The notes beneath the pieces were generated by a model. That model saw nothing but the letters and a program-made list of their open reading frames with translations. It did not search any database and had not been told where the DNA came from. Below, in pieces: positions 747-39,028 of a stretch of DNA of 40,083 nt. Position 1 is the stretch's first letter. Each line of letters starts with the position of its first letter. Origin of the DNA: a virus; IMG/VR virus record IMGVR_UViG_3300044491_001150, positions 1 to 40,083 of that record; one strand, given 5' to 3'. The position numbers were made by a program, and so were the translations under genes.

Positions 747-1660
747 GAACTATTTTTGACCTGCTCTTGATTTTTCCCATCAGCAAGTTTTTTAGCGTAT
801 TCAGGGTCTATAGTTGCATGAACATCTGCTGCAGCCATCTGCACTAAGTTGCCTTGGAATGTGTAAGTTCCAGTATGTAATAGTTCAACCATGGGTAGTG
901 ACCAAACATCTATCCCTATTTTCCTTACATTTTCACAGAACATATAATCTTCACTCAAATATCTATTCTGTTCGTTGATTATACAATCAAAGTATGCCAT
1001 GATTTGCTCTCCCGGTTTAAAGTCTCCTTCCCTAAGGTGGTCTGGAGTGTACTTGTACTGAGGATATGCTTCTTCATATTCTTCAAAAACACTTCTTTCT
1101 ATAATCATAAATCCAGTTCCAGCTTCTCTAACCTTCACAGGTTCAAATACTGGTGCTTGTCCATTTGGATAAGCTTTATGGTCTGGATTAAATACCATAT
1201 CTCCAGCAATCAAAGATAATCTTGATGGGTCATCGTCATACAGTCCGCTTTTCGCAGCCATCATAACTTTTTCCCAAGCAATGGTTTTCTTTGGATACAA
1301 ACCTGTAAATATTCTTAAAGGTTCGTCTGTATCTTGTGCTTCAGCAATTAAATGCAACATATACATTACATCCATTGCTTTCCAAGATATATCACTATCA
1401 ATAAAAAATAAATGTGTTGCGTCTGACTTTAAAAAGTTTGCCACACAATAATTTCTAGCTCTAGTAATTAAGGATTCATTAAATAAATAATAAATCTGTG
1501 ATTGTACACCATGATTCATAAATACTGCTGTCATATCCATCAAACATTTAGTATACAGTCCTGTACACATACCTCCATACATTGGAGTAGCAATATAAGG
1601 TTTCATTTCCCTAATCTTGTCTATGTTCAGTTCTATTTTTCTTCCACCTTCTTCGGTCAT
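743..1660 (-). CDS. Glycosyltransferase-like protein (GT-A fold, phage type)
   Basis: 305 residues. After a short N-terminus it reads KPYIATPMYGGMCTGLY, then RARNYCVANFL, then THLFFIDSDISW, where the D-S-D is a DxD-like metal/nucleotide-sugar motif after a hydrophobic strand. This order is typical of GT2-like glycosyltransferase-fold proteins of unknown acceptor found in large phages. It could glycosylate phage DNA, a phage protein or a surface glycan; the sequence does not say which. It overlaps the helicase gene start by an ATGA junction, implying translational coupling. Confidence 0.65.
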   Translation of the reverse strand: MTEEGGRKIELNIDKIREMKPYIATPMYGGMCTGLYTKCLMDMTAVFMNHGVQSQIYYLFNESLITRARNYCVANFLKSDATHLFFIDSDISWKAMDVMYMLHLIAEAQDTDEPLRIFTGLYPKKTIAWEKVMMAAKSGLYDDDPSRLSLIAGDMVFNPDHKAYPNGQAPVFEPVKVREAGTGFMIIERSVFEEYEEAYPQYKYTPDHLREGDFKPGEQIMAYFDCIINEQNRYLSEDYMFCENVRKIGIDVWSLPMVELLHTGTYTFQGNLVQMAAADVHATIDPEYAKKLADGKNQEQVKNSS

Positions 1661-2937: not shown

Positions 2938-3319
2938 TTACCCTATTCCTTAAACCTCTACTAGAAAAAGAGTGTTTTCTATTTGTGTAATGTACAGGTA
3001 TATCTAGTTCTTGTCCTGTAAAATATTTTTCTCTATAATCGTCTCCTACAAATCTAACATCTATTTTAGTTGATAGTAACAGGTCAATTAAACTTTGTTC
3101 TGTGTCGTACGGTATTATCTTATCTATATACTTTACCGCGTTTAGTTGTGTAAATCTTTCATAGACTGATTGTACAGGTTGATTTTTCTCCTGTCTATCA
3201 ATGCTTGGGTCAGTCTGCAACCCAACTATTAAGTAATCACAATTAGCTTTTGCTTCTTTTAGCATTACAATGTGTCCTGCGTGTAGCAAATCAAATGCTC
3301 CACAAGTAAATCCTATCAT
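2918..3319 (-). CDS. Cytidylyltransferase-like nucleotidyltransferase (TagD/HldE type)
   Basis: 133 residues from the ATG at 3319. It opens with IGFTCGAFDLLHAGHIVML, containing the HxGH nucleotide-binding signature of the cytidylyltransferase superfamily, and later has FVGDDYREKYFTG and the C-terminal SFSSRGLR that resembles the family ISTT(S)-x-R-x-R motif. It would transfer a nucleotidyl group onto a sugar or polyol phosphate, making an activated donor. A longer frame starts at 3364, but the ATG at 3319 overlaps the AsnB stop as ATGA, the usual junction here. It may supply activated substrate for the glycosyltransferase-like proteins. Confidence 0.85.
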   Translation of the reverse strand: MIGFTCGAFDLLHAGHIVMLKEAKANCDYLIVGLQTDPSIDRQEKNQPVQSVYERFTQLNAVKYIDKIIPYDTEQSLIDLLLSTKIDVRFVGDDYREKYFTGQELDIPVHYTNRKHSFSSRGLRNRVNESSSK

Positions 3320-4824
3320 TCTTTTTCTATTTCCTGCATATGTGATATATCTTGTTCTACCCAAGGCTGGCTGTACTTAGGTACATTATTATTCCAAGGA
3401 CTAGACCATCCAATTTTTGAGTTTCTATTTCTTACATGAGCGGGCAATCTATGTCCACAAACTTCTCTTAGAAGATATTTTTGAATCATCCAATCTTTTC
3501 CAAACTTTTCATTGTGTGCTAGTTTCCATTTACCAGCGATAGCAAATACATATTTTACAAAGTTTTGTCCAAGAAATACAGGTCTTGACTCTAAGCCAAA
3601 CATTCCACAAGTTTGGTCTGTTGCTAATATATTTTGTTCAGAAGTACAAAACATATCTATAAATAAAGAATTGTTTATAAAGTCATCTCCATAACATTTT
3701 GGTATGTCTGGATTAATTTTTATAGACCAATCTGTATACTTCTTGTCTAATCTTTTATTATGATGTGTATAACCACCAAACATCTCATCTGCACTATCTC
3801 CTGTAAGTATAACTTTACATCCTTTAGCTTTAGCAGCCTGACATAAGGCATATCGAGGAGCTCTTCTGTTATGGTCTGACCATGCAAAATGAGTATTATT
3901 CATCCACATTCTACCGTAGTGTTCTACATAATTATAAGGCAGAGTTACTACATTAATAGGTATATTCCATTCTTTGCAAGTTTGTATTGCCATTTTAGAT
4001 TCGTCTCTCATACCTTGAAAGTCAAACTCAGTTTTTTCTTGACCATATGCACAAGTAAATACTTCTAAGTCTATATCCATATCTTTAACTACAGATAAAA
4101 CCATTGTACTATCTAATCCACCACTTAAAAATAATCCTGTTTTTTGTTTACTTTGTGCAAGTTTTCTAATATTATTTACTAACCTTTCTTCAAAATCTTT
4201 AGGAACTTGCGGATAAAATGTTTGCATTAAATGAATATCCCATAAGTTTTTTGACTTCATTAGTTTTTTTGTAGCAAAATTATACTTAAATATTTCTCCA
4301 GGCATTACCTTTATAATATCTTTATATGGTGACTCTCTTTTAAACCATTGTCTTTGCCTCTTGTACTGTTGAGTATGAGAGTGATTATATTTCTTTTTAG
4401 TAAAACTTTTCAAACTTGTAGAAATAGTAATATCTTCGCCCTTTTTATATATCCATAAAGGTTTAGCACCAAAATGGTCTCTTACTGCGGTAAGCTCTCT
4501 TGTTTCCGTATTATAATGTACGAATGAGCCATGCCAATCAGTAGAAGATAAAAATCTCAGTCCATATGTTTCAAATCCATTTGCTAAAAATAGCGTATCA
4601 TTATCAACATTAGAATCATATGCTTCACCATTAAATACAAACATATTATTATTTTTTGTTTGTATTGGTTGCCAGCCTTGTACTCCTCTTATATCAAGCA
4701 AAGCGTGACCCATAGCAATATCCTTATTTCTAGCATATCTACACCCGTCAGGGCCTCGGAAAGCCTGTCTTTCTGTCATATTCTGTATATTATCTATATC
4801 AGTTGTTACTACAAATCCACACAT
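3316..4824 (-). CDS. asnB: Glutamine-hydrolysing asparagine synthetase
   Basis: 502 residues, close to full AsnB length. The N-terminus MCGFVV carries the catalytic Cys2 of class II glutamine amidotransferases, followed by RGPDG and the FNGEAYD segment. The synthetase half has the PP-loop LFLSGGLDSTMVLSV, then GDSADEMFGGY and the C-terminal KYLLREVCGHRLPAHVRNR. Both active sites look intact, so it should convert Asp and glutamine to Asn, or amidate another carboxylate. Asparagine synthetase-like genes occur in several marine phages. It sits between a radical SAM gene and a cytidylyltransferase, so a role in modifying a glycan or peptide is as possible as free asparagine supply. Confidence 0.93.
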   Translation of the reverse strand: MCGFVVTTDIDNIQNMTERQAFRGPDGCRYARNKDIAMGHALLDIRGVQGWQPIQTKNNNMFVFNGEAYDSNVDNDTLFLANGFETYGLRFLSSTDWHGSFVHYNTETRELTAVRDHFGAKPLWIYKKGEDITISTSLKSFTKKKYNHSHTQQYKRQRQWFKRESPYKDIIKVMPGEIFKYNFATKKLMKSKNLWDIHLMQTFYPQVPKDFEERLVNNIRKLAQSKQKTGLFLSGGLDSTMVLSVVKDMDIDLEVFTCAYGQEKTEFDFQGMRDESKMAIQTCKEWNIPINVVTLPYNYVEHYGRMWMNNTHFAWSDHNRRAPRYALCQAAKAKGCKVILTGDSADEMFGGYTHHNKRLDKKYTDWSIKINPDIPKCYGDDFINNSLFIDMFCTSEQNILATDQTCGMFGLESRPVFLGQNFVKYVFAIAGKWKLAHNEKFGKDWMIQKYLLREVCGHRLPAHVRNRNSKIGWSSPWNNNVPKYSQPWVEQDISHMQEIEKE

Positions 4825-5060
4825 TATTCTACTACCTTATATCCCATAATTGAATCTACTTCTAAATCTTCCCATTTTTGAAACTCCACATCATAGCATA
4901 TAAGTTTATCCCCACTCTGTTTCCTTATATGAATGGGTATATCACAGTGCAAGTCAGAAAGAGTATATTCTCTATCATATACATTATTAGATTTCAGACT
5001 TTGAAATGTAATTAATACTATGTGCTTTTCTAGTTTTTGTTTTAGTTTCTCGATATCCAT
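4824..5060 (-). CDS. Small Sm-like/SH3-fold phage protein (WYL_2-like)
   Basis: 78 residues with the pattern KxxLEKHIVLITFQSLK, YTLSDL and the end CYDVEFQKWEDLEVDSI. This resembles the WYL_2 (formerly DUF2693) family of small phage proteins predicted to have an Sm-like beta-barrel. Function is unknown. It overlaps the radical SAM gene on one side and abuts AsnB on the other. Confidence 0.6.
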   Translation of the reverse strand: MDIEKLKQKLEKHIVLITFQSLKSNNVYDREYTLSDLHCDIPIHIRKQSGDKLICYDVEFQKWEDLEVDSIMGYKVVE

Positions 5061-5818
5061 TTTTTATACCTTCTTTTATCATACTTGTTGTGTGTTCTAT
5101 TACATATAGAACAGACAGTATATTTATATCTATTCCCCTTTATGAGCTCTTGTCTCATTTCATTTAGTACTGGATGATTATTCCAGACTTCAAAGAAGTT
5201 ATCTTCTTTAATATTTCCAAAAATATTTGTATCTGTCCAATCATTACTGCACAGACTTATATCTCCTGTCCAATGTATCCACGCTTTAGTCATGGGTAAA
5301 ATACACGGCTCTTTTAAAGTTTTATCACTTGCTATAACATTATTATATATGTCATTTCTATTCTGAACTTGCAAAGGAGTTACTTCCCATTCTTCGGGTT
5401 CAACAGTTTGATCCCAATACCTATGTTCTTTTGCTGGAAGTATTGCTTTTCTTCTTTCCATTTCTTCTTCACTTTCATAAGTATTTATTACTGCTTTATC
5501 AAATAATGCAAACCAGTGTTTTCTTTTATCAAACTTATACCCATTAGTTAATATTCTAGTTTTATATAGTCTCCAAGGAGTATGCAGTCTGTTTATCATA
5601 TCTTCTGCACGAGGGTGTAAACTATTTTCTCCTCTACCACTCCAACATATCCAACCATTATATTTAATTTTATCTAAATAAGTAATAAAGTTATCAAATA
5701 CTTCATAAGGCATATGTTCATTAATATTTGGATATCCTTTAGACCTTGGGCAATAATTACAAGTCTTATTGCAGAGTCCTGTTACATCTATATTAATTAA
5801 CCAGATAGCTTGCGCCAT
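5042..5818 (-). CDS. Radical SAM enzyme
   Basis: 258 residues. The N-terminal NIDVTGLCNKTCNYCPRS has the CxxxCxxC [4Fe-4S]/SAM motif. A core with WSGRGENSLHP and RILTNGYKF follows, and the C-terminal part has paired cysteines (PCILPMTKAW, ISLCSND and YTVCSICN) spaced like a SPASM/twitch auxiliary cluster domain. SPASM-type radical SAM enzymes typically modify peptides or carbohydrates. The substrate is not evident. Its neighbours (AsnB, oxygenase-like proteins, sulfotransferases) suggest a shared modification pathway, which is inference. Confidence 0.88.
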   Translation of the reverse strand: MAQAIWLINIDVTGLCNKTCNYCPRSKGYPNINEHMPYEVFDNFITYLDKIKYNGWICWSGRGENSLHPRAEDMINRLHTPWRLYKTRILTNGYKFDKRKHWFALFDKAVINTYESEEEMERRKAILPAKEHRYWDQTVEPEEWEVTPLQVQNRNDIYNNVIASDKTLKEPCILPMTKAWIHWTGDISLCSNDWTDTNIFGNIKEDNFFEVWNNHPVLNEMRQELIKGNRYKYTVCSICNRTHNKYDKRRYKKWISRN

Positions 5819-5822
5819 GCTT

Positions 5823-6293
5823 TTAGATTTTCCTCCATGTGTCTTTCTTTTTATCCTCGCAATATTCCCATATTTTCCATGGAATACCTTGTTTATATAA
5901 TACTCCTGCCCAACTAGACCCCGCTATTGGTGGTCTACTCTCAATAAATGGAAAAGGACAATCCTTTAACCAAATTACTGATGCAATATCTTTCTTCTCA
6001 ACTTTTCTTATTTTAAGATATTTTAATTGAGCTGTTGTTGTTTTTTCATCATACCAATAAACTCCATTGGTATCTATAAAATGCTTTCCCCTATGCTTCA
6101 TCATTCCTACTTCGTCATCTATTTGATAACGCAAAGGATATATACTTTTCATTGGTGTTTGCAGCCTTCTTATTCCTATACTACTACCATCCATATTTTT
6201 ATCATCTACTACTTGGTCACCAATAATAACCAGTCCATCTATTTCTTCTGGCTCTTCATTTATGACGTAAATAGGGAATCTAATTTTTTGCAT
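5823..6293 (-). CDS. Conserved phage hypothetical protein
   Basis: 156 residues, no enzyme motif recognised. The second half has PFPFIESRPPIAG, WAGVLYKQGIPW and an end KKKDTWRKI, a pattern I associate with uncharacterised proteins of T4-like marine phages. It lies 4 bp upstream of the radical SAM gene and overlaps the HTD-motif gene by 34 bp. Confidence 0.6.
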   Translation of the reverse strand: MQKIRFPIYVINEEPEEIDGLVIIGDQVVDDKNMDGSSIGIRRLQTPMKSIYPLRYQIDDEVGMMKHRGKHFIDTNGVYWYDEKTTTAQLKYLKIRKVEKKDIASVIWLKDCPFPFIESRPPIAGSSWAGVLYKQGIPWKIWEYCEDKKKDTWRKI

Positions 6294-6655
6294 ATTTCCT
6301 CATAAGTTTCATCAAAAATACTTATCTTTAATATTTTTCTTGGTTTATCATACACTACAGCTCTATGTCTTTTAGTAGTATCAATAACTGCCATTCTATA
6401 CTGAAACTTTTCGGCTTTTTCTCCTATTTCAATATGCCCTGCACTTTCTAAATCATCATTTAGTAAGTAATTTATAGCACATTTAGTGTCCCAGTCAGTA
6501 TGCCAAGGTATAGTTTCAGTTAACTTTATTATTTTCATGTTCCATCTACCGTTAAACTGAACTGGAGGTATTCTAGTAAAAGTATATCCCTCTATAGTTT
6601 CTTTACCGTGATGTTTATATTGCTTCCATTTATAATTATAACTTGTGATACTCAT
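6260..6655 (-). CDS. Small 2OG/Fe(II) oxygenase-like protein
   Basis: 131 residues. A central ETIPWHTDWDTKCAINYLL has an HxD iron-ligand pair followed by a beta strand. Near the C-terminus RHRAVVYDKPRKILKISIF supplies a distal His and an Arg, in the order expected for the double-stranded beta-helix of 2-oxoglutarate dioxygenases. It is shorter than usual and the substrate is unknown. It overlaps both neighbouring genes and is one of at least five HxD-type proteins in the window. Confidence 0.6.
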   Translation of the reverse strand: MSITSYNYKWKQYKHHGKETIEGYTFTRIPPVQFNGRWNMKIIKLTETIPWHTDWDTKCAINYLLNDDLESAGHIEIGEKAEKFQYRMAVIDTTKRHRAVVYDKPRKILKISIFDETYEEICKKLDSLFTS

Positions 6656-7142
6656 CCCATCTCTCTAATACTTTATCAAAAGGTTCATCAAAACTTAATA
6701 CTAAATCTCGTCTCTGTATTCTTGTTATAGTTTTTAAACTATTCATATCTACTAATAGTGGTTTATCAGTCTTTACCTCTAGTCCAACACTCCCTTCATT
6801 GTTTGAGCTTACTATTTTATGTCTAGATTCTTTATCTATATGCGTAACATTCCAAATGATTCCAGTCTGACCCAATACAGGATATTTAGCATAAAAATCT
6901 TCCGGCATAACTTTTACAAAGAAAAGTCTACAATGCATCTTTTTAGAAAAAGGAACTTTATATTGTGCTACTGCATCTAAATACTTGCGGGTAACGTCTG
7001 TATGCCACATATTACCATCAGCGTTTGCGTAATTATTTAGGTCTACTTCCCATTGAAAGTTTGTGCCTTCTCTAATTTCTTTTATCCAATACTCTTTATC
7101 AATCGGATAACGTATTGTTTTCCATAGTTTGTCTAATTTCAT
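6636..7142 (-). CDS. HTD-motif hypothetical protein (oxygenase-like)
   Basis: 168 residues from the ATG at 7142, which follows an AGAGGAT ribosome site; a longer frame reaches 7250 but overlaps the upstream gene by 101 bp. It contains DGNMWHTDVTRKYLDAV with an HxD pair and a later strand-rich stretch (MHCRLFFVKVM, GLEVKTDKPLLVDM), but I see no clear distal His/Arg pair. It may be a divergent cupin or 2OG oxygenase-fold protein. The alternative is an unrelated phage family. Confidence 0.5.
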   Translation of the reverse strand: MKLDKLWKTIRYPIDKEYWIKEIREGTNFQWEVDLNNYANADGNMWHTDVTRKYLDAVAQYKVPFSKKMHCRLFFVKVMPEDFYAKYPVLGQTGIIWNVTHIDKESRHKIVSSNNEGSVGLEVKTDKPLLVDMNSLKTITRIQRRDLVLSFDEPFDKVLERWDEYHKL

Positions 7143-7149
7143 ATCCTCT

Positions 7150-7356
7150 TCACTTGTCTTTCCAAGACCAACCCTCTTCAATAGATGATTGTACTCCTTG
7201 AATAAAATCTCTATCTTCTTCTGATAATATTGACCAAAACTTACTAACATCTAGTGTTTGATCGTATACTTCGTCAGGATTCTTCAAATGAAAATCCTCG
7301 TTCATAAGCATCTCTATTTTGTCTAGTCTAATCTGTATTTTTTCTTTAAGATTCAT
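7150..7356 (-). CDS. Small acidic hypothetical protein
   Basis: 68 residues starting MNLKEKIQIRLDKIEML and ending EEGWSWKDK, mostly helical and acidic. The start at 7356 overlaps the GNAT stop codon by 11 bp. No family recognised. Confidence 0.55.
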   Translation of the reverse strand: MNLKEKIQIRLDKIEMLMNEDFHLKNPDEVYDQTLDVSKFWSILSEEDRDFIQGVQSSIEEGWSWKDK

Positions 7357-7838
7357 AAACAAACACCCAATTTTTTCTACCCGCTGGGTCAATATTAGTT
7401 CCTATTTCTCTACATCCAAAGTCGAGAAAGACTTGTCTGCCCTTCTCATATGTAATCTCTAGCATCATGTTAGGACTACCTAAATTATTTTTGCAAAACT
7501 CACGCCCTGTTGTTAAGTCATAAGTTGATGCACCCCCTTTGTAAGCATCTTCCCATGCTTGTCTACGAAATGCGGGATAACGATACTCTGTACCATCATC
7601 TCCTGTAAATACTTTATTTGTGCACAAAGCATTTACGCCTATCATTAGTTGTGGCTCTATACCTAGAACTGTATCATATGACATCATATAATATTGATTT
7701 TTATCATAATGTGCTTCTAAGTCTTGATAACAGACCTGATTTCTTACTATAAATCCTTGTATTCTCAACTGTATGACTCTATAAAGTTCATCAGTTGTTA
7801 ATTCTTCATAAGGTTTAACTATCGTAACTATTGACATA
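7346..7838 (-). CDS. GNAT-family N-acetyltransferase (ElaA-like)
   Basis: 163 residues from an ATG preceded by CAGGAGAG. The N-terminus LTTDELYRVIQLRIQGFIV followed by NQVCYQDLEAHYD matches the ElaA-like GNAT opening, and the C-terminal GRQVFLDFGCREIG resembles the acetyl-CoA-side helix and strand. The central acetyl-CoA loop is not obvious. It probably transfers an acyl group to an amine on a small molecule or sugar. It overlaps the QueC-like gene and belongs to the same block of modification genes. Confidence 0.6.
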
Positions 7839-8486
7839 ATTAACACTCTCCTGTACTCTTAGTTTAGCTTGTTTAGCTGTTTGTTCTGAAAACCATCTTT
7901 CGGCACACTTTTTACATCTACCACACGTTTTTAAATCATCTGTAGGATTATTACAAGTAAATATTAAATCATATAACTCTTTGTTACTTCTTACAAGTAA
8001 TGATATTATTTCTGCTTTTGTCATCCACTCAAAAGGAAATATATTGACAGGTAGATTCATAACTGAGTTTAAAGATACTTGTGTAACTTCTAAAACATCT
8101 TCGGCATCTACTGCTAGTATTCTATTAGGATATCTTAATTGTACTCTTTGTCTAAAACTATCTTCTGCACTAGAACCCCATACTATATTTTTTACTCTCA
8201 TCTTGTTTCCTTTTATGAGTTGTAATATAGCTGATTGATACTGATATACAGCAAAGAGTCCTGGATTATCTTTAGGAATATCACATACAGTTGTAACTAA
8301 AGGAACTCCTAGTAACTCACATTGTTTTTCAGCAGCTTGTTTAGATGCTTCAAATATTTTATTAGGGTCTGCCTTATCTGCTAAGTGTAGACCTACAACT
8401 TTCATACCTTTATTTACTGCATACAATAAAGCAGCAGTAGATTCAGTGCCACCACTTACGCATACTACAGTATCTTTATTTTTCAT
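7815..8486 (-). CDS. QueC-like 7-cyano-7-deazaguanine synthase / PP-loop ATPase
   Basis: About 223 residues from the ATG at 8486 (a TTG lies 9 bp further up). The N-terminal PP-loop TVVCVSGGTESTAALLYAV and the C-terminal TCNNPTDDLKTCGRCKKC (four-Cys zinc site) are hallmarks of QueC, which converts carboxydeazaguanine to preQ0. FolE, QueD and QueE are not in the window, so the phage would rely on host or distant genes. The family supports preQ0 for tRNA queuosine or deazaguanine DNA modification. An amide or nitrile-forming role on another acid is also possible. Confidence 0.82.
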   Translation of the reverse strand: MKNKDTVVCVSGGTESTAALLYAVNKGMKVVGLHLADKADPNKIFEASKQAAEKQCELLGVPLVTTVCDIPKDNPGLFAVYQYQSAILQLIKGNKMRVKNIVWGSSAEDSFRQRVQLRYPNRILAVDAEDVLEVTQVSLNSVMNLPVNIFPFEWMTKAEIISLLVRSNKELYDLIFTCNNPTDDLKTCGRCKKCAERWFSEQTAKQAKLRVQESVNYVNSYDS

Positions 8487-9114
8487 AATATTCAAAATCT
8501 TTTCTCCACCACTCTTTTACAAAGTTTTCTGCTTTCTCTGACCATATACACTCTTGTGTAGGAGATACATTATCTACTCTTTCAGGAAGATTCAACCACT
8601 TCCATATAGTTCCTTCTTCTAGTTTAAATACTTTTACTTCTTCTCTTATCCAAGTCCATTGAGGTAAAAACAAAATCTCTATTTCACTATTATGGGCATG
8701 AGTTCTATCTAGGTATATATCTATATTATCAAACAGTCTCCAAAACTGACCTTTTGGTAAGTATTGAGAAGCTCTTTCTGTCCACTCTGAGAACTCCGTA
8801 TTTACTAGCTCCAGCTTACACAAGTGCTTATAAACACTTTCCCATCTTGCCATAGGGTATCTAATTTGAGTTATATATTGATAGTCAGGATAGAAAGGTT
8901 TATATCTATCATAAGTAGCGTGCATATTATTTACTTCTACCCACTCGGCTTTATTTGTCTTCCATTTTGAAACTGATTTTAAACCAGAAGTCCATGTTTT
9001 CATTGCCATTTTCTTATCTTTAGGTAAGCGGTATAGCCTATAAGCTGTAGTTACAGAGCTACCACCACACTTTGGTATATGTATAAATATTATTTTATCG
9101 TTTTCAAATATCAT
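8476..9114 (-). CDS. Sulfotransferase-like protein 1
   Basis: About 212 residues from the ATG at 9114. The start reads MIFENDKIIFIHIPKCGGSS, the 5'-phosphosulfate-binding loop of PAPS-dependent sulfotransferases. ITQIRYPMARWESVY follows as the 3'-phosphate motif (R...P..R). It would move sulfate from PAPS to a carbohydrate or lipid. A longer frame reaches 9171, but the shorter start matches the family N-terminus and overlaps the previous stop by 11 bp. It is a tandem paralogue of the next gene. Confidence 0.85.
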   Translation of the reverse strand: MIFENDKIIFIHIPKCGGSSVTTAYRLYRLPKDKKMAMKTWTSGLKSVSKWKTNKAEWVEVNNMHATYDRYKPFYPDYQYITQIRYPMARWESVYKHLCKLELVNTEFSEWTERASQYLPKGQFWRLFDNIDIYLDRTHAHNSEIEILFLPQWTWIREEVKVFKLEEGTIWKWLNLPERVDNVSPTQECIWSEKAENFVKEWWRKDFEYYEK

Positions 9115-9712
9115 ATCCGAACTGCTTAAAATCTCTTTTGTAGTATCTAGTAAATAAACTCTGTGCTTCATCAGACCAGGTTACTTCTTTTCTATTAACT
9201 GCTACATTTCTTTTTCTTTCTTTTATACCTAGTCGTTTCCATATAGTTCCTTCTTCTAATTTATGAACTTCAACTTCTCTATCAATCCAATACCACATAG
9301 GCTTACCCATTATCATATATAAGGACTTTAATTGATCCTTACCCTTTCGATCAAAGTATTTATTCATATTTACAACACCTTGACACTGTACTATTATTGT
9401 TTTTATAGTCCAATTATTAAAATCATATTCAAACTCTTTGTGTCTTTTTAAGTGCCAATACATACTTTCCCATCTATCATAAGGGTTTCTTACTTGAGTT
9501 ATAAACTTGTTATACCCTCTATATTTGTACCAATCTGCATACATATTAAACTGATTATGAAAACAGTTTTGTGTTATACTTCTACCACCAGTCTTTGGAA
9601 TATGTATAAATACAAAATCTCCAACTATTTTACCTGCTAACGCTTCTTTACGTCGCTCTTCTCCCATAACTTTAATATTAAAGCTACGTCCGTCTTCTCT
9701 AGAGAAGTCCAT
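9104..9712 (-). CDS. Sulfotransferase-like protein 2
   Basis: About 202 residues. FVFIHIPKTGGRSITQN is the PAPS 5'-phosphosulfate loop and KFITQVRNPYDRWESMYWH the 3'-phosphate motif. Compared with its tandem paralogue it has a 30-residue N-terminal extension (MDFSREDGRSF). The C-terminal third of both proteins carries a similar VHKLEEGTIWKRLG block, showing recent duplication. It overlaps the DNA polymerase stop by 14 bp. Confidence 0.87.
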   Translation of the reverse strand: MDFSREDGRSFNIKVMGEERRKEALAGKIVGDFVFIHIPKTGGRSITQNCFHNQFNMYADWYKYRGYNKFITQVRNPYDRWESMYWHLKRHKEFEYDFNNWTIKTIIVQCQGVVNMNKYFDRKGKDQLKSLYMIMGKPMWYWIDREVEVHKLEEGTIWKRLGIKERKRNVAVNRKEVTWSDEAQSLFTRYYKRDFKQFGYDI

Positions 9713-11966
9713 ATAATTTTTCAAACTTACCAAGAGAGTAATCGTCTGCAACATCAAAGTCACAACCAACTGGAGCGTCAGGTATTGACAGTCCTCTATC
9801 TTTTTGAATAAACTCTTTCAGTTTCTTACTATATAGTTCTACCTCATCTTCGGGCACTTCTGCTAAAATGGAGTCATGCACTAGAGCAAAGATCTTTGCT
9901 TTCATACCAGTCTTGCGAATATACTTCTGAGTATCGATTGCACCAAGCAGATTGATGTCGGATGATACAGACTGTACTAGTGCATTTACTCCTGACCTAA
10001 CTTCGTGAGCAGCGATTCCCTTGTCTTGTGAAAAGACATTTGGTAATCTTCTCTTTCTTCCGAAATGAGAATAAATAAAACCATTAGCTTGAATAAACTT
10101 CTGCATATTATTTAACCACTCTCGCAGTTTGGGGAACGCTTCAAAGTAATCTTTGATAACCAATTGAGCGTCTTGCATAGTAAACTCACTACCACTATCT
10201 TTAGTAACTTGTTCACTAATCTTTTTCGGGCCTGCTCCATACATAATACCAAATGTAACAGCTTTAGCTTGTTGTCGTTTGTCTCCGTAGAGTTCTGCGA
10301 CTTCTTCAACTTCACATGGAAGTTTGAATACTTGCTTAGCAATTGTACTATGGAAGTTTCCTCCAGACTTAAACACATTCATCAGACCTTTATCATTTGC
10401 TAGCACAGCTGCACAATATACTTCTGCAGTAGTTAAGTCCATGGCAACTATTTTATGACCCGCCTTTGCCTTGATACAACCCTTAACTGTGGGATTGTCT
10501 CGCGGAAGCTGTTGCATATTTAGTTTACCACTACTAGATAGTCGGCCTGATGTAGTACCATGAAGGTTGAAACCAGTGCGCAGTCTGCCATCTCTATCGA
10601 GATTCGGTATAATTTTATCAAGATATGTATTCTTAATTTTAACCTTTTGTCTGATTTCTAAAATGTGTTTAGGTACTTCGTGTTCTTCGGCAAGTTGCCC
10701 AAGAACTTCTGCGTCTGTGCTATGAGCACCAGTACCCGTTTTCTTACCCGTTGGGGCTAAGCCTATGTAATCAAATAGTAACTCACGAAGTTGTACTGTA
10801 CTATTTGGATTAAACATACCTCCTTTGGCTTTTTGATATGCTCTAACCTCAGGGAAGGATTCAAGAGCAGCTACAGCTACATCAATATCTTCCTGCATCC
10901 TTTTCTGTCCAAACTCTAGTCGAGCAAGGTCAAAAGGAACACCGTTAGATTCTACATCTTTAAGGAATCTTACTCCTTCAATAAGAAGATTTTTATATAC
11001 CCAGTATAATTTATCATTTTTCAATATTGCTGCTTCAAACTTTTCAAATAACAAGAAGGTAACTATGGCATCCATTGCAGCATAGTATTTCATTGTTTCA
11101 AATGGAATCATAGAATAACTAAAGTCTGCTTTTAATATTCCTGTTTTCTTCTTGTACTCTTGTATATAGTTATCAAGTTCTGCCTCATAGTCTCCATATG
11201 GAGTATGATTCATGGCTAGTTGTTTTAGTCCATGTGTTCCTGGGTTTTCGTCAAACATATAGTGCATTAGCATTGTATCTTCAAAGTTTGGGAACTTGAA
11301 GTTGAAATGATACTCAAACCATTGTAAATCAAACTTACTGTTATGAAATACAACTCGTTTCTTATCAAATAGTTCTTGCATCATTTGTTCTGCTTTATCG
11401 TCTATACATTCTGTGTCTACATATACACCATGTTCTTTTTTGTATGACATAGAGAAACCAAGCATATAACCATCACGGCAATATAATGCTGATGTCTCAG
11501 AGTCAAGTGCTATGTAATTGTTTGGGTGGTCTAACGCTTCTTGTAAATACTTATGCAGTTCTTCACTGTCTTGTATACCAAAGCATCTGTCTTCGCCTAG
11601 CGTCATTTGTTTTAAATCTCCGCTTATGTACCCCGATATACTCTCAATTGCTTCCTCGAACGACTTCTTTGCTTCTGGTCTGAACTTTATCATAGCAGGG
11701 TTAATTAAACCTAAAAACTTATCATCAACAATTTTTCCATTGTACTCTGTTATTGATGTCTTTCTTGTAAAGTTTTTGAAAGGCTCTGAACCTACTAGAA
11801 TGAGCCAATCGTACGAGTCGATATCGATTTCAATATCAACATCTCTTTTTAATATTTTCTGTTTTGAACTATCTGAACACAGGGCATACCTATCATGCTC
11901 GAAGTCAAAGTACTTATCATAATTAGTACTTGTCATTGTTCTTTCTATTATTGCTACGTTAGCCAT
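9699..11966 (-). CDS. Family A DNA polymerase with 3'-5' exonuclease domain
   Basis: 755 residues. The exonuclease domain has ExoI YIALDSETSAL (DxE), ExoII VFHNSKFDLQW and ExoIII YYAAMDAIVTF. The polymerase domain has motif A VAMDLTTAEVYCAAV, the O-helix RQQAKAVTFGIMYG, with Phe at the position equivalent to E. coli F762, and motif C ALVHDSILAEV. It lacks the 5'-3' exonuclease of bacterial PolA, as is usual for phages. It replicates phage DNA with the primase gene it overlaps by 8 bp. Motif A is divergent from DYSQIELR and motif C reads HDS rather than HDE. Confidence 0.96.
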   Translation of the reverse strand: MANVAIIERTMTSTNYDKYFDFEHDRYALCSDSSKQKILKRDVDIEIDIDSYDWLILVGSEPFKNFTRKTSITEYNGKIVDDKFLGLINPAMIKFRPEAKKSFEEAIESISGYISGDLKQMTLGEDRCFGIQDSEELHKYLQEALDHPNNYIALDSETSALYCRDGYMLGFSMSYKKEHGVYVDTECIDDKAEQMMQELFDKKRVVFHNSKFDLQWFEYHFNFKFPNFEDTMLMHYMFDENPGTHGLKQLAMNHTPYGDYEAELDNYIQEYKKKTGILKADFSYSMIPFETMKYYAAMDAIVTFLLFEKFEAAILKNDKLYWVYKNLLIEGVRFLKDVESNGVPFDLARLEFGQKRMQEDIDVAVAALESFPEVRAYQKAKGGMFNPNSTVQLRELLFDYIGLAPTGKKTGTGAHSTDAEVLGQLAEEHEVPKHILEIRQKVKIKNTYLDKIIPNLDRDGRLRTGFNLHGTTSGRLSSSGKLNMQQLPRDNPTVKGCIKAKAGHKIVAMDLTTAEVYCAAVLANDKGLMNVFKSGGNFHSTIAKQVFKLPCEVEEVAELYGDKRQQAKAVTFGIMYGAGPKKISEQVTKDSGSEFTMQDAQLVIKDYFEAFPKLREWLNNMQKFIQANGFIYSHFGRKRRLPNVFSQDKGIAAHEVRSGVNALVQSVSSDINLLGAIDTQKYIRKTGMKAKIFALVHDSILAEVPEDEVELYSKKLKEFIQKDRGLSIPDAPVGCDFDVADDYSLGKFEKLYGLL

Positions 11967-17405: not shown

Positions 17406-18147
17406 ATTTCTTTATATCCTTTACTATTCTATCATGCATTAGTGCATGTCCTTCTTCTAACGGATGGTCTTTTTCTCCAAAGGGTACTCCCGCCTTTTTA
17501 CACATATCATACATACCTTCTTCTTTTAGAAAAGGCAACCTTTTAAACCATTCCTTCTTACCTATTTGGGGAGTTTCCCATACAAAGTTTGCTCCCTCTC
17601 TAAATGTATGTTCTAAGTAGTCTGGTAAATGTACATAGGGAGTATTCGACATAGTATAATTCAAAACATTAATTCCTATTGACTTTAAGTAAATATTAGT
17701 TGTATACATATAATGTAAGTTATATATTAAATTAAATGGCATATTTCTTACATGCACCATATAATCCTGTAAAGATTTCTTAATAACACCTGGTACAGGA
17801 TTTTTAGTTATATAACTATTTTCTTTATCCACAAATCCAGTTTTAGGATTCCAGTTAAAGTTTGCCCAATTAGCTGCTCTCCATATAAACTCATGATTAT
17901 TTAGAGGTGCCCACTCTAAATACTCCATTCTATTAATTCCAGACCACATAATTACTACAAGTTTGGGTTGAAAGAATTGAGGCACATCATTTATAGTTGT
18001 CCTCCATATTCTATCATTACTTCCTCCAACCTTTCCATGATTTATACACTCTTGATTAAACTCTTCTGAAACAGACCAAGCAAACTTATGCTTCTTCTTT
18101 CCAACTTCCATTCCTCTAACAAAACTACATCCATTCCAATATATCAT
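17380..18147 (-). CDS. SGNH/GDSL-type hydrolase-like protein
   Basis: 255 residues. YWNGCSFVRGMEVG gives block I (GCSF in place of GDS), HGKVGGSNDRIWR the Gly/Asn blocks, VVIMWSGINRMEY the block III-like segment, and KDHPLEEGHALMHDR the C-terminal DxxH/His region. This is the SGNH hydrolase layout, where Ser, Asp and His cleave or transfer acyl groups on sugars or lipids. The gene overlaps the carbamoyltransferase by 4 bp, suggesting both decorate the same molecule. The substrate is unknown. Confidence 0.7.
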   Translation of the reverse strand: MIYWNGCSFVRGMEVGKKKHKFAWSVSEEFNQECINHGKVGGSNDRIWRTTINDVPQFFQPKLVVIMWSGINRMEYLEWAPLNNHEFIWRAANWANFNWNPKTGFVDKENSYITKNPVPGVIKKSLQDYMVHVRNMPFNLIYNLHYMYTTNIYLKSIGINVLNYTMSNTPYVHLPDYLEHTFREGANFVWETPQIGKKEWFKRLPFLKEEGMYDMCKKAGVPFGEKDHPLEEGHALMHDRIVKDIKKYGFNKEFN

Positions 18148-19481
18148 AGTACATCTACTCCATATTTTGTTTCAAATTGTTTTGCATCTTCCCAAGTGTT
18201 CACAATAGGTTGTCCTTTTATATTCAAACTTGTATTAAGTAACATAGGAACTTTAGTTACTTCATAATAATATTCTAGTATTTCTCTAAGATTACTTCCA
18301 TCATTCTTTACTACTTGTACTCTTGCTGTTCCATCTACATGAGTTACGCTAGTGTAGTCGTGTTTTGCCTTAGATACAAACTGCATATATTCATTTGCAT
18401 ATCCTTCAAAGTATTCGTCATAGAACTCCTCTAGTATTGCTGGTGCAAATGGTCTAAACTTTTGTCTTCGTTTTATATCATTTACAGTATCTTTTACATC
18501 AGTTCTAACGTCTGCTAGTAAAGACCTATTACCCAAAGCTCTTGGACCAAACTCTGCTTGTCCATTTGCTACTCCACATACTCTTTTGTATACAAGTTTC
18601 TTTACTATTTTATTAACCTTTAAGTCTCTAAAAATGTTTTCTCCCCAAAAAGTGTGAGGATAATCTAATCGTTTCTTTGTGTGTGCTAATATACAACCAA
18701 GCGCGCTTCCTGCATCGCCTGGATTAGGAAATATCCACATATCATCAAACATAGGACGAATCTTACTATTTGCTACACAGTTTAAGGCAACTCCACCACC
18801 ATATACTAGCTTAGAGCCATGCTTTCTTGCTTCACGCATAATTTTTAGTATTTCTTGTTCTATTGTATACTGCGCACTTGCGGCTATATCGTATGGGTGT
18901 TTCCAAAACCATTTTGTTAAAGGAAATCCATGACTACAATCAGACTGTACTTCTTCTGACATATCTATTTCTGCATCACCATATGCCGCCATACCCATTG
19001 TTATATACTCATCTTCGTTTGGTTTGAGTCCTATTCTTTTCGTAATAGCACTATAAAACATTCCCAAAGACCAAGGGTATTGCTTACTCCATATCTTTTT
19101 TCCATCTTTCCATATAGTTGCTGTGTCATACTCGCCTACTGCGTCTATAACTACACATACAACATCATCAGTAAATGGAGCAGTATAATATCCTGCCGCC
19201 ATGTGACTCTCGTGATGAAAGATTGTTTTTATATCGTAATCTCTTTTTAGCTCGATTCGAGACTGACCATAATGCTCTCGTCTTGCTCTTTTAAACTCTG
19301 TGTTTTCATAATAAATAACTTGGTCTCCTTTCTCTTTTTGTACCAAGTTATCGGGCAACCATCTATCATTTTTAACTCTTGTATATCTTTCGGCTTGGGT
19401 TGCAAATTGTAATTGATTATACTCATCTACCACAGCTATCGCTGCATCATGGAAGCCTTCACTAATTCCTATAAACTTCAT
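18144..19481 (-). CDS. NodU/CmcH-family carbamoyltransferase
   Basis: 445 residues. The N-terminal MKFIGISEGFHDAAIAVVDE is the GxxxxHDA(S/A) start of the family. HHESHMAAGYYT, VVCVVIDAVGEYDTATIW, MGMAAYGD and LVYGGGVALNCVANSKI follow. The YrdC-like C-terminal part has QAEFGPRALGNRSLLADVR and RPFAPAIL. It transfers carbamoyl from carbamoyl phosphate via carbamoyl-AMP to a hydroxyl on a sugar, antibiotic or hydroxymethylated base. Related phage enzymes are known. No hydroxymethylase is in the window, so a surface glycan is as likely a target as DNA. Confidence 0.92.
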   Translation of the reverse strand: MKFIGISEGFHDAAIAVVDEYNQLQFATQAERYTRVKNDRWLPDNLVQKEKGDQVIYYENTEFKRARREHYGQSRIELKRDYDIKTIFHHESHMAAGYYTAPFTDDVVCVVIDAVGEYDTATIWKDGKKIWSKQYPWSLGMFYSAITKRIGLKPNEDEYITMGMAAYGDAEIDMSEEVQSDCSHGFPLTKWFWKHPYDIAASAQYTIEQEILKIMREARKHGSKLVYGGGVALNCVANSKIRPMFDDMWIFPNPGDAGSALGCILAHTKKRLDYPHTFWGENIFRDLKVNKIVKKLVYKRVCGVANGQAEFGPRALGNRSLLADVRTDVKDTVNDIKRRQKFRPFAPAILEEFYDEYFEGYANEYMQFVSKAKHDYTSVTHVDGTARVQVVKNDGSNLREILEYYYEVTKVPMLLNTSLNIKGQPIVNTWEDAKQFETKYGVDVL

Positions 19482-20017
19482 AATTCAAACTTTCCGTAGG
19501 CAAATATATTTTGACTGTATCTCATTCCTTTTGTAATTGTGGTGACTTCGTGTGATGATAGCGAGTGGAATAAAATCATTGTTCCTTGTTCAACAGGTGC
19601 TGAATATCCTTTTACAATTAGTCTACCCCCTTCGTACTCGCTGGGGTCTGACAGCTGAATAGCTGCAGAGATTTTTCTACATTCTCTTTTCTTGTCATAT
19701 AAAGTATCGTCCAATATCATATCATAGTGTAATTTAAAATATTGTCCAACTCCATATCTATTGATAGCTGCTTCAATATGTCCATTTAAGTGTAAGTTAT
19801 AATGTTGTTTATTGAAAGTTTTAAATGCTTCTACGACTTCCTTTCTTTTAATAGGTAAACGATAAGTTATGTCTGCATTTCTGTACCCACCAGTTGTGAC
19901 TTTTCCATCTATGCCCCTGGCACTTGCGGTTATCCATTCATTATCGGGGTGATTTCTGAGTGAATCACATTCTTCCTTAGTATAAAAGTTTTCAATTATT
20001 GCTATCATATTCTTCAT
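19478..20017 (-). CDS. 2OG-Fe(II) oxygenase (prolyl-4-hydroxylase type)
   Basis: 179 residues. FKLHYDMILDD carries the HxD pair, AAIQLSDPSEYEGGRLIV the strand that follows, and MILFHSLSSHEVTTITKGMRYSQNIF the distal His and the Arg that binds 2-oxoglutarate. The full P4H-like core is present, so it should hydroxylate a protein or small molecule. An internal ATG at 20008 is an equally plausible start. It overlaps the carbamoyltransferase by 4 bp. A paralogue with the same PSEYEGG segment lies at 29052-29717. Confidence 0.88.
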   Translation of the reverse strand: MKNMIAIIENFYTKEECDSLRNHPDNEWITASARGIDGKVTTGGYRNADITYRLPIKRKEVVEAFKTFNKQHYNLHLNGHIEAAINRYGVGQYFKLHYDMILDDTLYDKKRECRKISAAIQLSDPSEYEGGRLIVKGYSAPVEQGTMILFHSLSSHEVTTITKGMRYSQNIFAYGKFEL

Positions 20018-28557: not shown

Positions 28558-29062
28558 AAGCTACTAACCCTCCTATTGATTCTGGTATATAAATATGCGA
28601 CCATTTCTTAGAAAATGATTTTTGATGATTTAATTCTAACTTGAGTCTTGTCCACTCTCTTGAATCCCAAGCAAAGGTGTCTAAGTCCTCCACACCCGCT
28701 GCTTTTTGTAATGTCCAATGCTGTTCTGTTTCTTTTACAATTATATTTCCTTTACCTTTTAACTGAATATACGAAGCATTTACTCCTGTTTTCGGTATAT
28801 GAAAGGTTTTAGAAGAACATTTAATTATTTTAAAAGAGTTAATAAAAGAACAGTCTGGAAACTTACTGTTAGCGTGTATCCACTCAAATATACTATCTCT
28901 TTCTTCTCTCCATACAGGAAAAGAATCATTATATACCCATCTAGCTCTATTATACAATACCCAAGCCTCTGCCTTCATAAAGTCAGTATCTCTTACAGGA
29001 TTGTAGTATGCTTGTAAATGTTTTATTAACTTATTTAAACTTTCAGGTTGTTCAATAACCAC
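28538..29062 (-). CDS. Hypothetical protein with a sulfotransferase-like IPKTG loop
   Basis: 174 residues. KTFHIPKTGVNASYIQLK resembles the HIPKTGG phosphosulfate loop of the sulfotransferases at 8476 and 9104 but lacks the second Gly and any 3'-phosphate motif. The remainder (EWIHANSKFPDCSF, SHIYIPESIGGLV) is unrecognised. The resemblance may be chance. It overlaps both flanking genes and sits within the glycosyltransferase/oxygenase cluster. Confidence 0.55.
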   Translation of the reverse strand: MVIEQPESLNKLIKHLQAYYNPVRDTDFMKAEAWVLYNRARWVYNDSFPVWREERDSIFEWIHANSKFPDCSFINSFKIIKCSSKTFHIPKTGVNASYIQLKGKGNIIVKETEQHWTLQKAAGVEDLDTFAWDSREWTRLKLELNHQKSFSKKWSHIYIPESIGGLVAYVEYGN

Positions 29063-29717
29063 TTGATTCTCCTCGTATAAATACTACCACCACATCTCTT
29101 GCTCCAGAGACTAGTGGTGTAGATTCGTGTTCGTGTATTGATGTAAACATAGTAATACTTCCACACTTTTTAATTGTATTAAAGTTGTGTCTAAACTTTT
29201 CCCTGTGTTTAATCCACTTAGGAGGATTACTACTATCCATATAAACGTCTGGATGAGTAAAAGTTTCTGCTACCTTTAAATCTCCTCCCTCATATTCTGA
29301 AGGATGAGTTAATTGTATACTACAACTTATTTTTCTAACTGATTCTTTGTTTAGGAAATTAGACAGACAAGGTCTATGGTCACGATGTGCGGTAAAGAAC
29401 ATACCTTTTTTATCGTATCTTACCCAATTAATTTCGTGTTGATTACGATTTGGGTATAAATGTAAATTATATGACTTTTTATTGTATAATGATACTGCAT
29501 CATATAGTCTATCATAAAATGGAAAAAGTATTTGACTGAGTTTCTTACTATATCTAACAGACAGGTCTCCTTTAGACCACTTAGTACCTGCCATTTTCCA
29601 TTCTCTATTATAGTTTAGTTTTTTAACTTGATTTACTTCTTCTTCAGACAAAAAATCAGGTATGTGACCAACTATGTCAGAGTTTCGTACGCTCAATTGC
29701 AGCTGTAAGTTTTTCAA
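29052..29717 (-). CDS. 2OG-Fe(II) oxygenase, prolyl-4-hydroxylase type
   Basis: 221 residues. KGMFFTAHRDHRPCLSNFL contains HxD, ISCSIQLTHPSEYEGGDLKV the following strand, and GSITMFTSIHEHESTPLVSGARDVVVV the distal His and Arg. It shares the PSEYEGG element with the protein at 19478-20017, so the two are paralogues. It should hydroxylate an unknown acceptor. It overlaps two small genes. Confidence 0.85.
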   Translation of the reverse strand: MKNLQLQLSVRNSDIVGHIPDFLSEEEVNQVKKLNYNREWKMAGTKWSKGDLSVRYSKKLSQILFPFYDRLYDAVSLYNKKSYNLHLYPNRNQHEINWVRYDKKGMFFTAHRDHRPCLSNFLNKESVRKISCSIQLTHPSEYEGGDLKVAETFTHPDVYMDSSNPPKWIKHREKFRHNFNTIKKCGSITMFTSIHEHESTPLVSGARDVVVVFIRGESSGY

Positions 29718-31986: not shown

Positions 31987-32367
31987 TTAGTTTATCTCCA
32001 AGACTTTCCTCTTAGAATCTGGAGTTCGTGATAAGTGGATTGTCAGTAATCCGTCTTGTAGATTTATTTTATCTACTAATAGGTCAGCGTTCAGAATAAA
32101 TCTTCGTTCAAAAGATTTTAGACTAAGACCTTGATGAACGAACTGCTCATCATCACCTAGTTTGTGTTCCTTTTTACCCTTGATTTGAAGTTCTTTGTTA
32201 TCAAAAACAATCTCCAATTCATCTTTCTTCCAACCGGGCACTGCGATTTCTATACGATAATCGTTGTTCCCTGCTATTAAGTTATATCTAGGATAGCTAC
32301 TCTCCGTATAAGACGGGAGGTTAGGCATATCCAATCCAAGCCAAAACTTACTTAAATCTATACTCAT
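31987..32367 (-). CDS. Small heat-shock protein (Hsp20/alpha-crystallin)
   Basis: 126 residues from the ATG at 32367 behind GGAGAT. Core: DYRIEIAVPGWKKDELEIVF, LQIKGKKEH, SLKSFERRFILNADLLVDK and GLLTIHLSRTPDSKRKVLEI, the full alpha-crystallin domain with the terminal I-x-I-like motif. It prevents aggregation of unfolded protein. Hsp20 genes are common in T4-like cyanophages. It is driven by the promoter at 32459-32487. Confidence 0.92.
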   Translation of the reverse strand: MSIDLSKFWLGLDMPNLPSYTESSYPRYNLIAGNNDYRIEIAVPGWKKDELEIVFDNKELQIKGKKEHKLGDDEQFVHQGLSLKSFERRFILNADLLVDKINLQDGLLTIHLSRTPDSKRKVLEIN

Positions 32368-32458
32368 TTTTATCTCCATAATTCCTTTTCAGTAAATATT
32401 CACATCTCCTTTCGGTAGATGCACCAATACGTAAGTGAAACCTATCACTTACAAAATA

Positions 32459-32698: not shown

Positions 32699-32727
32699 TT
32701 GACAAACCCTCTCAAAGTCGGTATAAT
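32699..32727 (+). promoter_or_regulatory. Promoter of the nuclease-bS21 operon
   Basis: Plus strand TTGACA (32699-32704), 17-bp spacer containing CTCTCAAAG, TATAAT (32722-32727), preceded by AATAGTTC. The 32 bases from 32699 to 32730 recur exactly on the minus strand at 39028-38997. Predicted start near 32734. Confidence 0.9.
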
Positions 32728-32779
32728 ATATTTATAAAAAAATAAATACAATGGTGTGTTTATTAAGCAAGGAGAAAGA

Positions 32780-33442
32780 ATGAGTAATACTACTACATTG
32801 CGTCAAACACATTCTGATTTCGGTGGAGGTCAAACCATCTTTAGTAAAGGTGCAAGAGACATAGAAGCGAATCTGAATAGTGTAGTTCCACTCGTAATGG
32901 AACAATTAAAAGAGGACTACCCTCATTACACTATAGAACATCATAAAAATATTCGTAAGGATAGCAGTTTCTATGATTTAATGGGATATGAACTTCACAA
33001 CCCCAATGCTAACATCAAACCTGATGGTGGCATGATTACAGTAAATGGTTATCCTGTGTTCTTTGGCGAAGTCAAAAATCAGGGTACGAATCACCTAAGA
33101 AAACGAGAAGGATTACCTCGTCAAAGTATGGGTAATGGCATTGAGCGTATCTACAAAAACATTGTAGAGATTTCACACATTATGAAAAACTACGACTGTG
33201 TGCCTTATGTTATCTTTGTGCAAGGTTCTGACTTTCATCAAGGCAGTTCAATCATTGATAGACTTTCAATGCTCTCGCCCTTCAATCAACTGAAAACAAC
33301 AGAAACAAGTGTGTTCATTAAAATCAACGATAACTGGGATGATGAACCAAAGACATTCTCTGCTGCAGAAATGTATGATATTACGCTAGAGAGATGCAAG
33401 GAGTCTCTAGTTTACTACAAAGCGAGGTCACTCAATGTCTAA
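32780..33442 (+). CDS. EcoRI-like type II restriction endonuclease, no methyltransferase seen
   Basis: 220 residues from the ATG at 32780 behind AAGGAG. IKPDGGMITVNGYPVFFGEV carries Asp82 and Glu97, and KNQG Lys99: the EcoRI PD...ExK set (D91, E111, K113). QSMGNGIERIYKN contains Asn119, Glu122 and Arg123, matching EcoRI N141, E144 and R145, but EcoRI A142 is Gly, A138 aligns with Ser and M137 with Gln. PYVIFVQGSDF matches EcoRI PYVLFLEGSNF. The protein should bind as a dimer and cut an AATT-centred site. There is no methyltransferase beside it, and RAATTY is absent from the whole window. A ten-codon frame at 32751-32783 overlaps the start as ATGA. Family assignment is firm; RAATTY specificity is inferred. 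Confidence 0.95.
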   Translation: MSNTTTLRQTHSDFGGGQTIFSKGARDIEANLNSVVPLVMEQLKEDYPHYTIEHHKNIRKDSSFYDLMGYELHNPNANIKPDGGMITVNGYPVFFGEVKNQGTNHLRKREGLPRQSMGNGIERIYKNIVEISHIMKNYDCVPYVIFVQGSDFHQGSSIIDRLSMLSPFNQLKTTETSVFIKINDNWDDEPKTFSAAEMYDITLERCKESLVYYKARSLNV

Positions 33443-33605
33443 TTGGACACAAGAGCAAAAGGACTTTCTTAAAAGGCACTACGGAAGTTTGCCTATTGAA
33501 GAACTTGCAAGTAAACTTCAGAAGAGTCAAGACGCTATCTATTCAAAAGTATACTACTTGAGAAGGCGTGGTTGGACATTTGGAGGTGACAATGCCAAGC
33601 GTTAA
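33435..33605 (+). CDS. Small HTH-like protein in the nuclease operon (56 aa)
   Basis: It begins MSNWTQEQKDFLKRHYGSL and has IEELASKLQKSQDAIYSKV then YYLRRRGW, matching a single unit of the HTH-like family at 15722, 22333, 34488 and 39228 (I/A-x-x-L ... S-x-x-x-I). It overlaps the nuclease stop by 8 bp and bS21 by 14 bp, so the three genes are translationally coupled. Plausibly a controller of the operon, like a C protein of restriction systems, but that is inference. Confidence 0.75.
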   Translation: MSNWTQEQKDFLKRHYGSLPIEELASKLQKSQDAIYSKVYYLRRRGWTFGGDNAKR

Positions 33606-33819
33606 TCTAAAAGGAATGAGCTTTGAAAAAGGACTTCGAATCTTTCGCAAGAAAGTAATGAACGCTGGTATCAAAGAGGAAGTGAGAGAACGTAAGTACT
33701 ACACTAAACCTAATGATACTAGAAATCAAAAGAATAATTATAGGAAGCGAACACGAGAACTCGAGAAGCGAAAGTCATACGAACTCGAAAGAAGACGAAG
33801 AATCACATCAAATCGTTAA
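33592..33819 (+). CDS. rpsU: Ribosomal protein bS21
   Basis: 75 residues from the ATG at 33592, directly behind GGAGGTGA. Key stretch: FEKGLRIFRKKVMNAGIKEE, then VRERKYYTKPNDTRNQK and a basic Arg/Lys-rich tail, which aligns with bacterial bS21 (F-x-x-A/G-L-R-x-F-x-x-x, then E-V-R-x-R-x-x-Y-x-K-P). The bacterial protein is about 71 residues. bS21 helps the 30S subunit bind mRNA near the ribosome site, and phage copies are known in marine phages. It may replace host bS21 to favour phage messages. A frame beginning at 33568 lacks a ribosome site. Confidence 0.93.
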   Translation: MPSVNLKGMSFEKGLRIFRKKVMNAGIKEEVRERKYYTKPNDTRNQKNNYRKRTRELEKRKSYELERRRRITSNR

Positions 33820-38993: not shown

Positions 38994-38999
38994 ACATAT

Positions 39000-39028
39000 A
39001 TTATACCGACTTTGAGAGGGTTTGTCAA
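39000..39028 (-). promoter_or_regulatory. Promoter, exact copy of the nuclease-operon promoter
   Basis: Minus strand TTGACA (39028-39023), 17-bp spacer, TATAAT (39005-39000). The 32-base core matches the plus-strand promoter at 32699 base for base. Confidence 0.88.

Follow-up and report, generated by a model that had tools for sequence, protein, structure and literature searches.

A solitary EcoRI-family nuclease gene in an uncultured T5-like phage coincides with total loss of its predicted recognition word

An EcoRI-family nuclease gene in a T5-like phage genome

The window, that is, the whole 40,083-nucleotide stretch of viral DNA analysed here, contains at positions 32780–33442 (+) a gene for a 220-residue protein, which runs from an ATG at 32780 to a stop codon ending at 33442 and is preceded by a ribosome-binding-like AGGAGA (32770–32775, +), read directly from the sequence. 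The original prediction, made from the letters alone, held that this gene encodes an EcoRI-like endonuclease retaining both the catalytic residues and the recognition segment of EcoRI, and all three points are borne out. The protein scores 66.4 bits against the Pfam EcoRI family (PF02963; E 2.8e-18), above the curated cut-off of 22 bits, and EcoRI itself is its top PDB relative by sequence (E ~5e-12). Structural comparison with EcoRI, proposed along with the prediction, gave the same answer: the first five PDB matches of an AlphaFold model built from 37 relatives (pLDDT 78, with the N-terminal 25 residues poorly predicted) are EcoRI chains (E 1.4e-11 to 7e-10, TM 0.60–0.66). The codons of D82, E97 and K99, the PD...ExK core, lie at 33023–33076 (+); these residues align with D91, E111 and K113 of EcoRI and are present in 37 of 37 aligned sequences, placing the protein among the PD-(D/E)xK nucleases. 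The recognition segment Q115-S-M-G-N-G-I-E-R123 (33122–33148, +) corresponds in the alignments to M137–R145 of EcoRI (EcoRI numbering verified against L150), and within its GN-x-IER motif G118, N119 and E122 are invariant in the 37 sequences, with I121 and R123 conserved in at least 90%. A search of 50,697 records of isolated phages returned no homologue of this nuclease.

Upstream of the gene lies a putative consensus sigma-70-type promoter, TTGACA-N17-TATAAT (32699–32727, +), the sole match of this pattern on the plus strand of the window; a comparable promoter precedes the nuclease gene in L002 and L005–L008. The 29-base promoter sequence TTGACAAACCCTCTCAAAGTCGGTATAAT is present twice in the window, on opposite strands (32699–32727, +, and 38999–39028, -), and since the slot promoters of the other gene-bearing contigs examined have a different spacer, the window copy may reflect a recent duplication or conversion. 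The nuclease gene occupies a slot bordered on one side by an Hsp20-family gene (31987–32379, -; PF00011, E 5.9e-15) and on the other by a small HTH-like gene that overlaps its end (33435–33605, +; a weak Sigma70_r4_2 match, below cut-off), paired with a gene for an S21-like small protein (33592–33819, +; PF01165, E 7.2e-11). The positions of all three bordering genes are conserved in relatives.

The window is part of a ~105-kb T5-like genome of an uncultured phage. It encodes a T5-like gene set (split NAD ligase, D5-like regulator, primase, DnaB-like helicase, DNA polymerase, spanins and endolysin), its polymerase is 45–46% identical to those of T5-like isolates, and it has a collinear relative, G030, a complete-looking genome of 105,272 bp with a 77-bp end overlap; the T5-type replication genes and this collinearity place it with the T5-like phages (Demerecviridae). 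As read from the relatives of the phage, its bacterial hosts are probably marine. A contig (G005) that matches 12.4 kb of the window at 98.3% identity extends ~20 kb beyond the left end of the window, and together with G032, L281 and L286 these sequences cover, by alignment, 72.8 kb of the 105-kb G030, with ~30 kb of the genome of this lineage lying outside the sampled contigs. L281 and L286 have no link to the nuclease gene, so the late region is assigned less firmly; the lookup of the structural region used a variable protein as query and returned only near-copies of G030. Many contigs are near-copies of one another, and the independent evidence amounts to two lineages. The window also carries sulfotransferase, asparagine-synthase, QueC-like, radical SAM, carbamoyltransferase and 2OG-Fe(II) oxygenase genes (1660–9769, 18147–20017 and 29055–29717, all -), a set possibly devoted to DNA or surface modification.

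Absence of RAATTY and the predicted specificity of the nuclease

The word RAATTY is entirely missing from positions 1–40083. Its four forms AAATTT, AAATTC, GAATTT and GAATTC each occur 0 times, whereas each of the other 12 NAATTN contexts occurs 8 to 35 times. Markov models predict 21–52 RAATTY sites in the window, and synonymous-codon shuffles, which preserve all proteins and codon usage, predict 91±6 in its coding sequence; under the same shuffles the control word YAATTR shows no deficit (68 observed, 66 expected). The codon shuffles and control words thus rule out chance or base composition as the cause. In a 127-kb pool of the lineages, which is partly redundant, RAATTY is again absent, against 180 sites expected, and among all degenerate palindromes of 4–6 bases the only missing words with an appreciable expectation are RAATTY and the words contained in it; at a lower threshold TGATCA joins them (0 against 5.1).

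EcoRI uses Arg200 to read the outer G; its Gln115, Gly140 and Ala142 touch the inner T methyls, and Met137 is located near the outer bases (PMC3806743). On specificity DETERMINANTS, alignment shows EcoRI Q115, G140, N141, E144, R145 and R200 retained in the phage nuclease, and M137, A138, A139, A142 and R203 replaced by Q, S, M, G and M, respectively. Retention of inner contacts combined with change of outer ones would suit recognition of a central AATT with less strict reading of the outer pair. From genome composition, the total absence of RAATTY leads to a predicted specificity of R^AATTY, not EcoRI's GAATTC.

Methylase candidates accompany other homologues but none was found here

The original prediction had also noted that no protein of the 40 kb shows a DNA methyltransferase motif, and searches by profile, motif and homology uphold this. 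Among the Pfam matches listed for the 52 window proteins (25 of 38 families) there is no DNA methyltransferase family; the motifs [NDS]PP[YFW], GPPC and PCQ are absent from open reading frames of at least 80 codons in the window and in the 20-kb extension provided by G005; and tblastn with six cognate methylases gave no match in the window, this extension or G030, where the sole methylase-motif match is a chance-like SPPF. Because the window is a genome fragment, the absence of a methylase there cannot by itself settle its absence in the phage; the search beyond the window that had been suggested as a check returned none in the ~20 kb of G005 or in G030. A cognate methyltransferase encoded with the nuclease, the mark of a type II restriction-modification system, was thus found in none of the three, and a hidden methylase was rejected on these grounds. 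NPPY/NPPF motifs in L281 and L286 were discarded as well, as they lie in short proteins that by eye do not resemble methyltransferases.

Other members of the family are differently equipped. A DPPY-type open reading frame lies at most 1.5 kb from 77 of 80 bacterial homologues, mostly directly upstream, and two of the remaining three are no more than a few hundred bases from the end of their contig. Likewise, among 32 more distant viral homologues (28–42% identical), a DPPY/NPPF methylase candidate adjoins all those with enough flanking sequence, the three without one being on short or end-truncated stretches; the candidate of L231 is a DNA methyltransferase by profile (phrog_799, E 3.7e-40), and the others were identified by motif. 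The viruses in which a methylase candidate neighbours the nuclease retain RAATTY. On two viral contigs (L232:660–1928 and L233:9983–11251), an EcoRI-like domain and an NPPF methylase motif fall within one open frame, a possible nuclease-methylase fusion judging from the sequence.

Loss of RAATTY accompanies the nuclease gene in two lineages

A solitary nuclease had been taken to imply some other means of self-protection, and one is apparent in the total absence of RAATTY, which the window shares with its close gene-bearing relatives and not with gene-less ones. All close gene-bearing contigs (L002–L008) are at zero, among them G032 over all of its 19.5 kb (32 expected), whereas 15 contigs with another gene in the same slot hold 193 RAATTY sites against 216 expected. 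Of 80 polymerase relatives, zero counts are confined to six that are at least 98% identical and two at 85% (L037 and L085); L037 overlaps the gene-bearing G032 at 92% DNA identity and comes from the same sample as the gene-bearing L008. At the terminase locus, two of 80 sequences have zero RAATTY, one of them from the L037/L008 sample, and the other 78 contain 1352 sites against 1454 expected. These zero-count polymerase and terminase contigs do not include the gene itself and are tied to it by identity, overlap or sample. Within a single sample (3300031974), L006 and L012 have no RAATTY, and L100 and L026 have 15 and 14 sites, respectively. Family-wide avoidance imposed by hosts was rejected as the cause of the loss, given that relatives retain the word.

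Alignment with a gene-less relative, G009, illustrates how the sites disappeared. None of its 40 RAATTY sites aligned to the window is retained there. At 26 of them a single base change separates the two sequences, often GAATTT to GAGTTT or AAATTT to AAGTTT; other AATT words of G009 are retained at 17–26%. In the polymerase tree, phages without RAATTY form two clades with normal-count phages in between, and a single clade is rejected (lnL difference 78.7, AU p 4.6e-5), the p-value serving as a guide since the zero-RAATTY label comes from the same loci as the tree. The two lineages are ~76% identical in DNA, at least as distant from each other as the window is from G009, yet their nuclease genes are 90–92% identical. 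Most likely, therefore, RAATTY was erased twice, and gene transfer coupled to a second purge would be the simplest reading of these sequence relationships; the alternative history is one ancestral purge followed by gene loss and regained sites elsewhere. A further EcoRI-like homologue, 68% identical, lies on L009 (3677–4101, +), a 4.1-kb contig that keeps 18 RAATTY sites (AAATTT 8, AAATTC 5, GAATTT 5, GAATTC 0); this contig stops within the gene, and a neighbouring methylase could therefore be missing from view; alternatively, the specificity of this homologue may be narrower.

The nuclease slot is variable among relatives

In many relatives, the slot is occupied, in the same orientation, by a gene for an unrelated 150-residue protein, here called B, with an invariant D48...E57-x-K59 (L100, L101, L103, L106, L107, L109, L111–L114, L116, L117, L119 and L133; e.g., L111:1849–2295, -). 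The model of B (pLDDT 87) has PvuII as its best match (E 2.8e-5, TM 0.62), and its Pfam match to PvuII is weak (E 0.09). The remaining relatives have a small methyltransferase-like protein or another protein pair in the slot, or leave it empty. A consensus promoter also precedes most B genes, where the ATG mostly lies a few bases past the -10 hexamer (L111:2295, L106:2657 and others; TATAATATCTGTATG), suggesting leaderless transcripts.

No methylase was found in the 105-kb G030, which carries B, by tblastn or by motif apart from the chance-like match mentioned above, nor does this genome have an erased palindrome of 4–6 bases; CAGCTG is near expectation (31 against 25). GGTCC and GGWWCC, though scarce in one subgroup, are depleted elsewhere too and were not assigned to B. 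Foldseek lists the methyl-dependent NhoI/Eco15I domains for B, and one possibility is accordingly that it may be a modification-dependent nuclease with no need of self-avoidance. With no erased palindrome assignable to B, the evidence that phages exchange nuclease genes at this locus is suggestive.

A second word, GATC, is strongly depleted across the whole phage family and wholly absent in G031 (L127, L140–L142; 0 against 140 expected), L065, L066, L069, L070 and L047. No GATC-cutting gene was identified, and the nuclease slot of G031 is empty; the loss could be due to host restriction or to another phage-borne nuclease.

Discussion

In the present study, we describe a phage that very probably carries a solitary RAATTY nuclease, is safe from it through erasure of the target, and uses it to cut unmodified non-self DNA. 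The EcoRI-fold nuclease would be active, would recognise RAATTY and would be produced in infected cells from the consensus sigma-70 promoter; point mutations would have removed RAATTY from the phage genome, and it is because the word is gone that the enzyme could work without a methylase. Its substrates would then be any unmodified DNA other than the phage's own, namely the host chromosome, co-infecting phages and plasmids, and its gene would sit in a slot that related phages leave empty or fill with a different nuclease-like gene. From the patterns described above we infer the activity of the nuclease, its exact specificity, the timing of its expression and the non-self target under selection. 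As for its role, destruction of host DNA and exclusion of rival phages appear about equally probable. The former is favoured by the lack of a recognisable homologue of the T5 pre-early A1 protein, none having been detected by tblastn in G030 and the lineage contigs, where a divergent copy could escape; in favour of the latter are the slot's turnover and the many RAATTY sites in close relatives. On balance, we lean towards a broader reading as well, in which self is marked by erasing the cut word, the gene moved between lineages with each recipient purged, and the slot serves as a polymorphic weapon locus with EcoRI-fold and PvuII-fold variants.

The order of events could also have been the reverse, with a host RAATTY restriction-modification system driving site loss first and the phages then taking the host's nuclease gene alone; the lone nuclease would be free of cost and would exclude rival phages, the host DNA staying methylated. 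Avoidance of host restriction sites is widespread among phages (PMC6286503), this family avoids GATC (8 against 99), and our data give no order of gene gain and site loss. We nevertheless consider this history unlikely, as relatives from the same sample keep RAATTY and as the GATC avoidance of the family is for the most part incomplete and, in contrast to that of RAATTY, does not go with the gene.

Far less credible is the idea that the gene is a decaying, inactive restriction-modification remnant and that RAATTY was lost for another reason. Solitary restriction genes of bacteria are indeed often truncated or near a broken methylase (PMC3488263), and the phage protein is, at 220 residues, shorter than the 277-residue EcoRI; yet its reading frame is open, its catalytic residues are invariant in all copies, a consensus promoter stands before it, and a single word, an exact fit to an EcoRI-type core, has been fully lost in two lineages. 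An undetected methylase elsewhere, or hypermodified bases, would protect the phage and make the missing word incidental, an explanation that we hold to be just as improbable. The unsampled part of the genome leaves room for such a gene, and the QueC-like, carbamoyltransferase and 2OG-Fe(II) oxygenase proteins of the window belong to families that act in DNA-modification pathways among other roles. However, a modified genome needs no site loss, and the distant viral homologues with a methylase candidate do keep their sites; no methylase turned up in 60 kb of the species or in G030, and a deficit of the size seen in the codon shuffles is not incidental.

The phage nuclease resembles the type II enzymes EcoRI and RsrI in family (PF02963), predicted fold, and catalytic and inner-AATT contact residues, and differs from them in being phage-borne, in lacking a methylase partner, and in its changed outer contacts, with RAATTY rather than GAATTC as the predicted site. 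ApoI, known as a bacterial enzyme, has the specificity R^AATTY, identical to the word predicted for the phage nuclease. The endonucleases of T4 act on host DNA, and T4 marks its own DNA by cytosine modification. Host-DNA destruction by a lytic phage is a possible common role of these enzymes, T5 A1 and the phage nuclease, which is unrelated to them in protein and belongs to a phage that marks self by word loss. PacI recognises a rare 8-base site and belongs to a bacterium, whereas the word lost from the phage is frequent, degenerate and 6 bases long. The likeness is that of a solitary enzyme tolerated through an absent recognition word: PacI of Pseudomonas alcaligenes is cited as tolerated because the genome lacks its site (PMC3488263), and if the phage specificity is RAATTY, the same holds for the window and its gene-bearing relatives. 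The restriction enzymes of chloroviruses and marseilleviruses are likewise viral and act on non-self DNA but are paired with a methylase (PMC7253447), which was not found for the phage nuclease. The intron homing endonuclease of PhiPA3 likewise belongs to a phage and interferes with another that infects the same cell (PMC11620839); it has a rare target, whereas the nuclease described here would cut often, each rival genome offering it dozens of sites. Phages seldom encode solitary restriction enzymes (12 in 831 genomes; PMC4176335). In the open-access library searched, we came upon no account of a phage from which a frequent word has been eradicated in association with a gene, nor a phage precedent for the target-absence principle known from the bacterial PacI.

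Collectively, these results point to another way for a virus to tolerate a restriction enzyme, namely the removal of every target word without a methylase. They also pose a puzzle, in that an expected 50–90 sites per 40 kb fell to zero, apparently twice, though each leftover site should be lethal under an active enzyme. Where erasure of a word goes with a gene, it is also a sign of that gene's activity in nature. Genome composition gives a direct and cheap prediction of enzyme specificity. The same erasure test could reveal other solitary phage nucleases together with their specificities.
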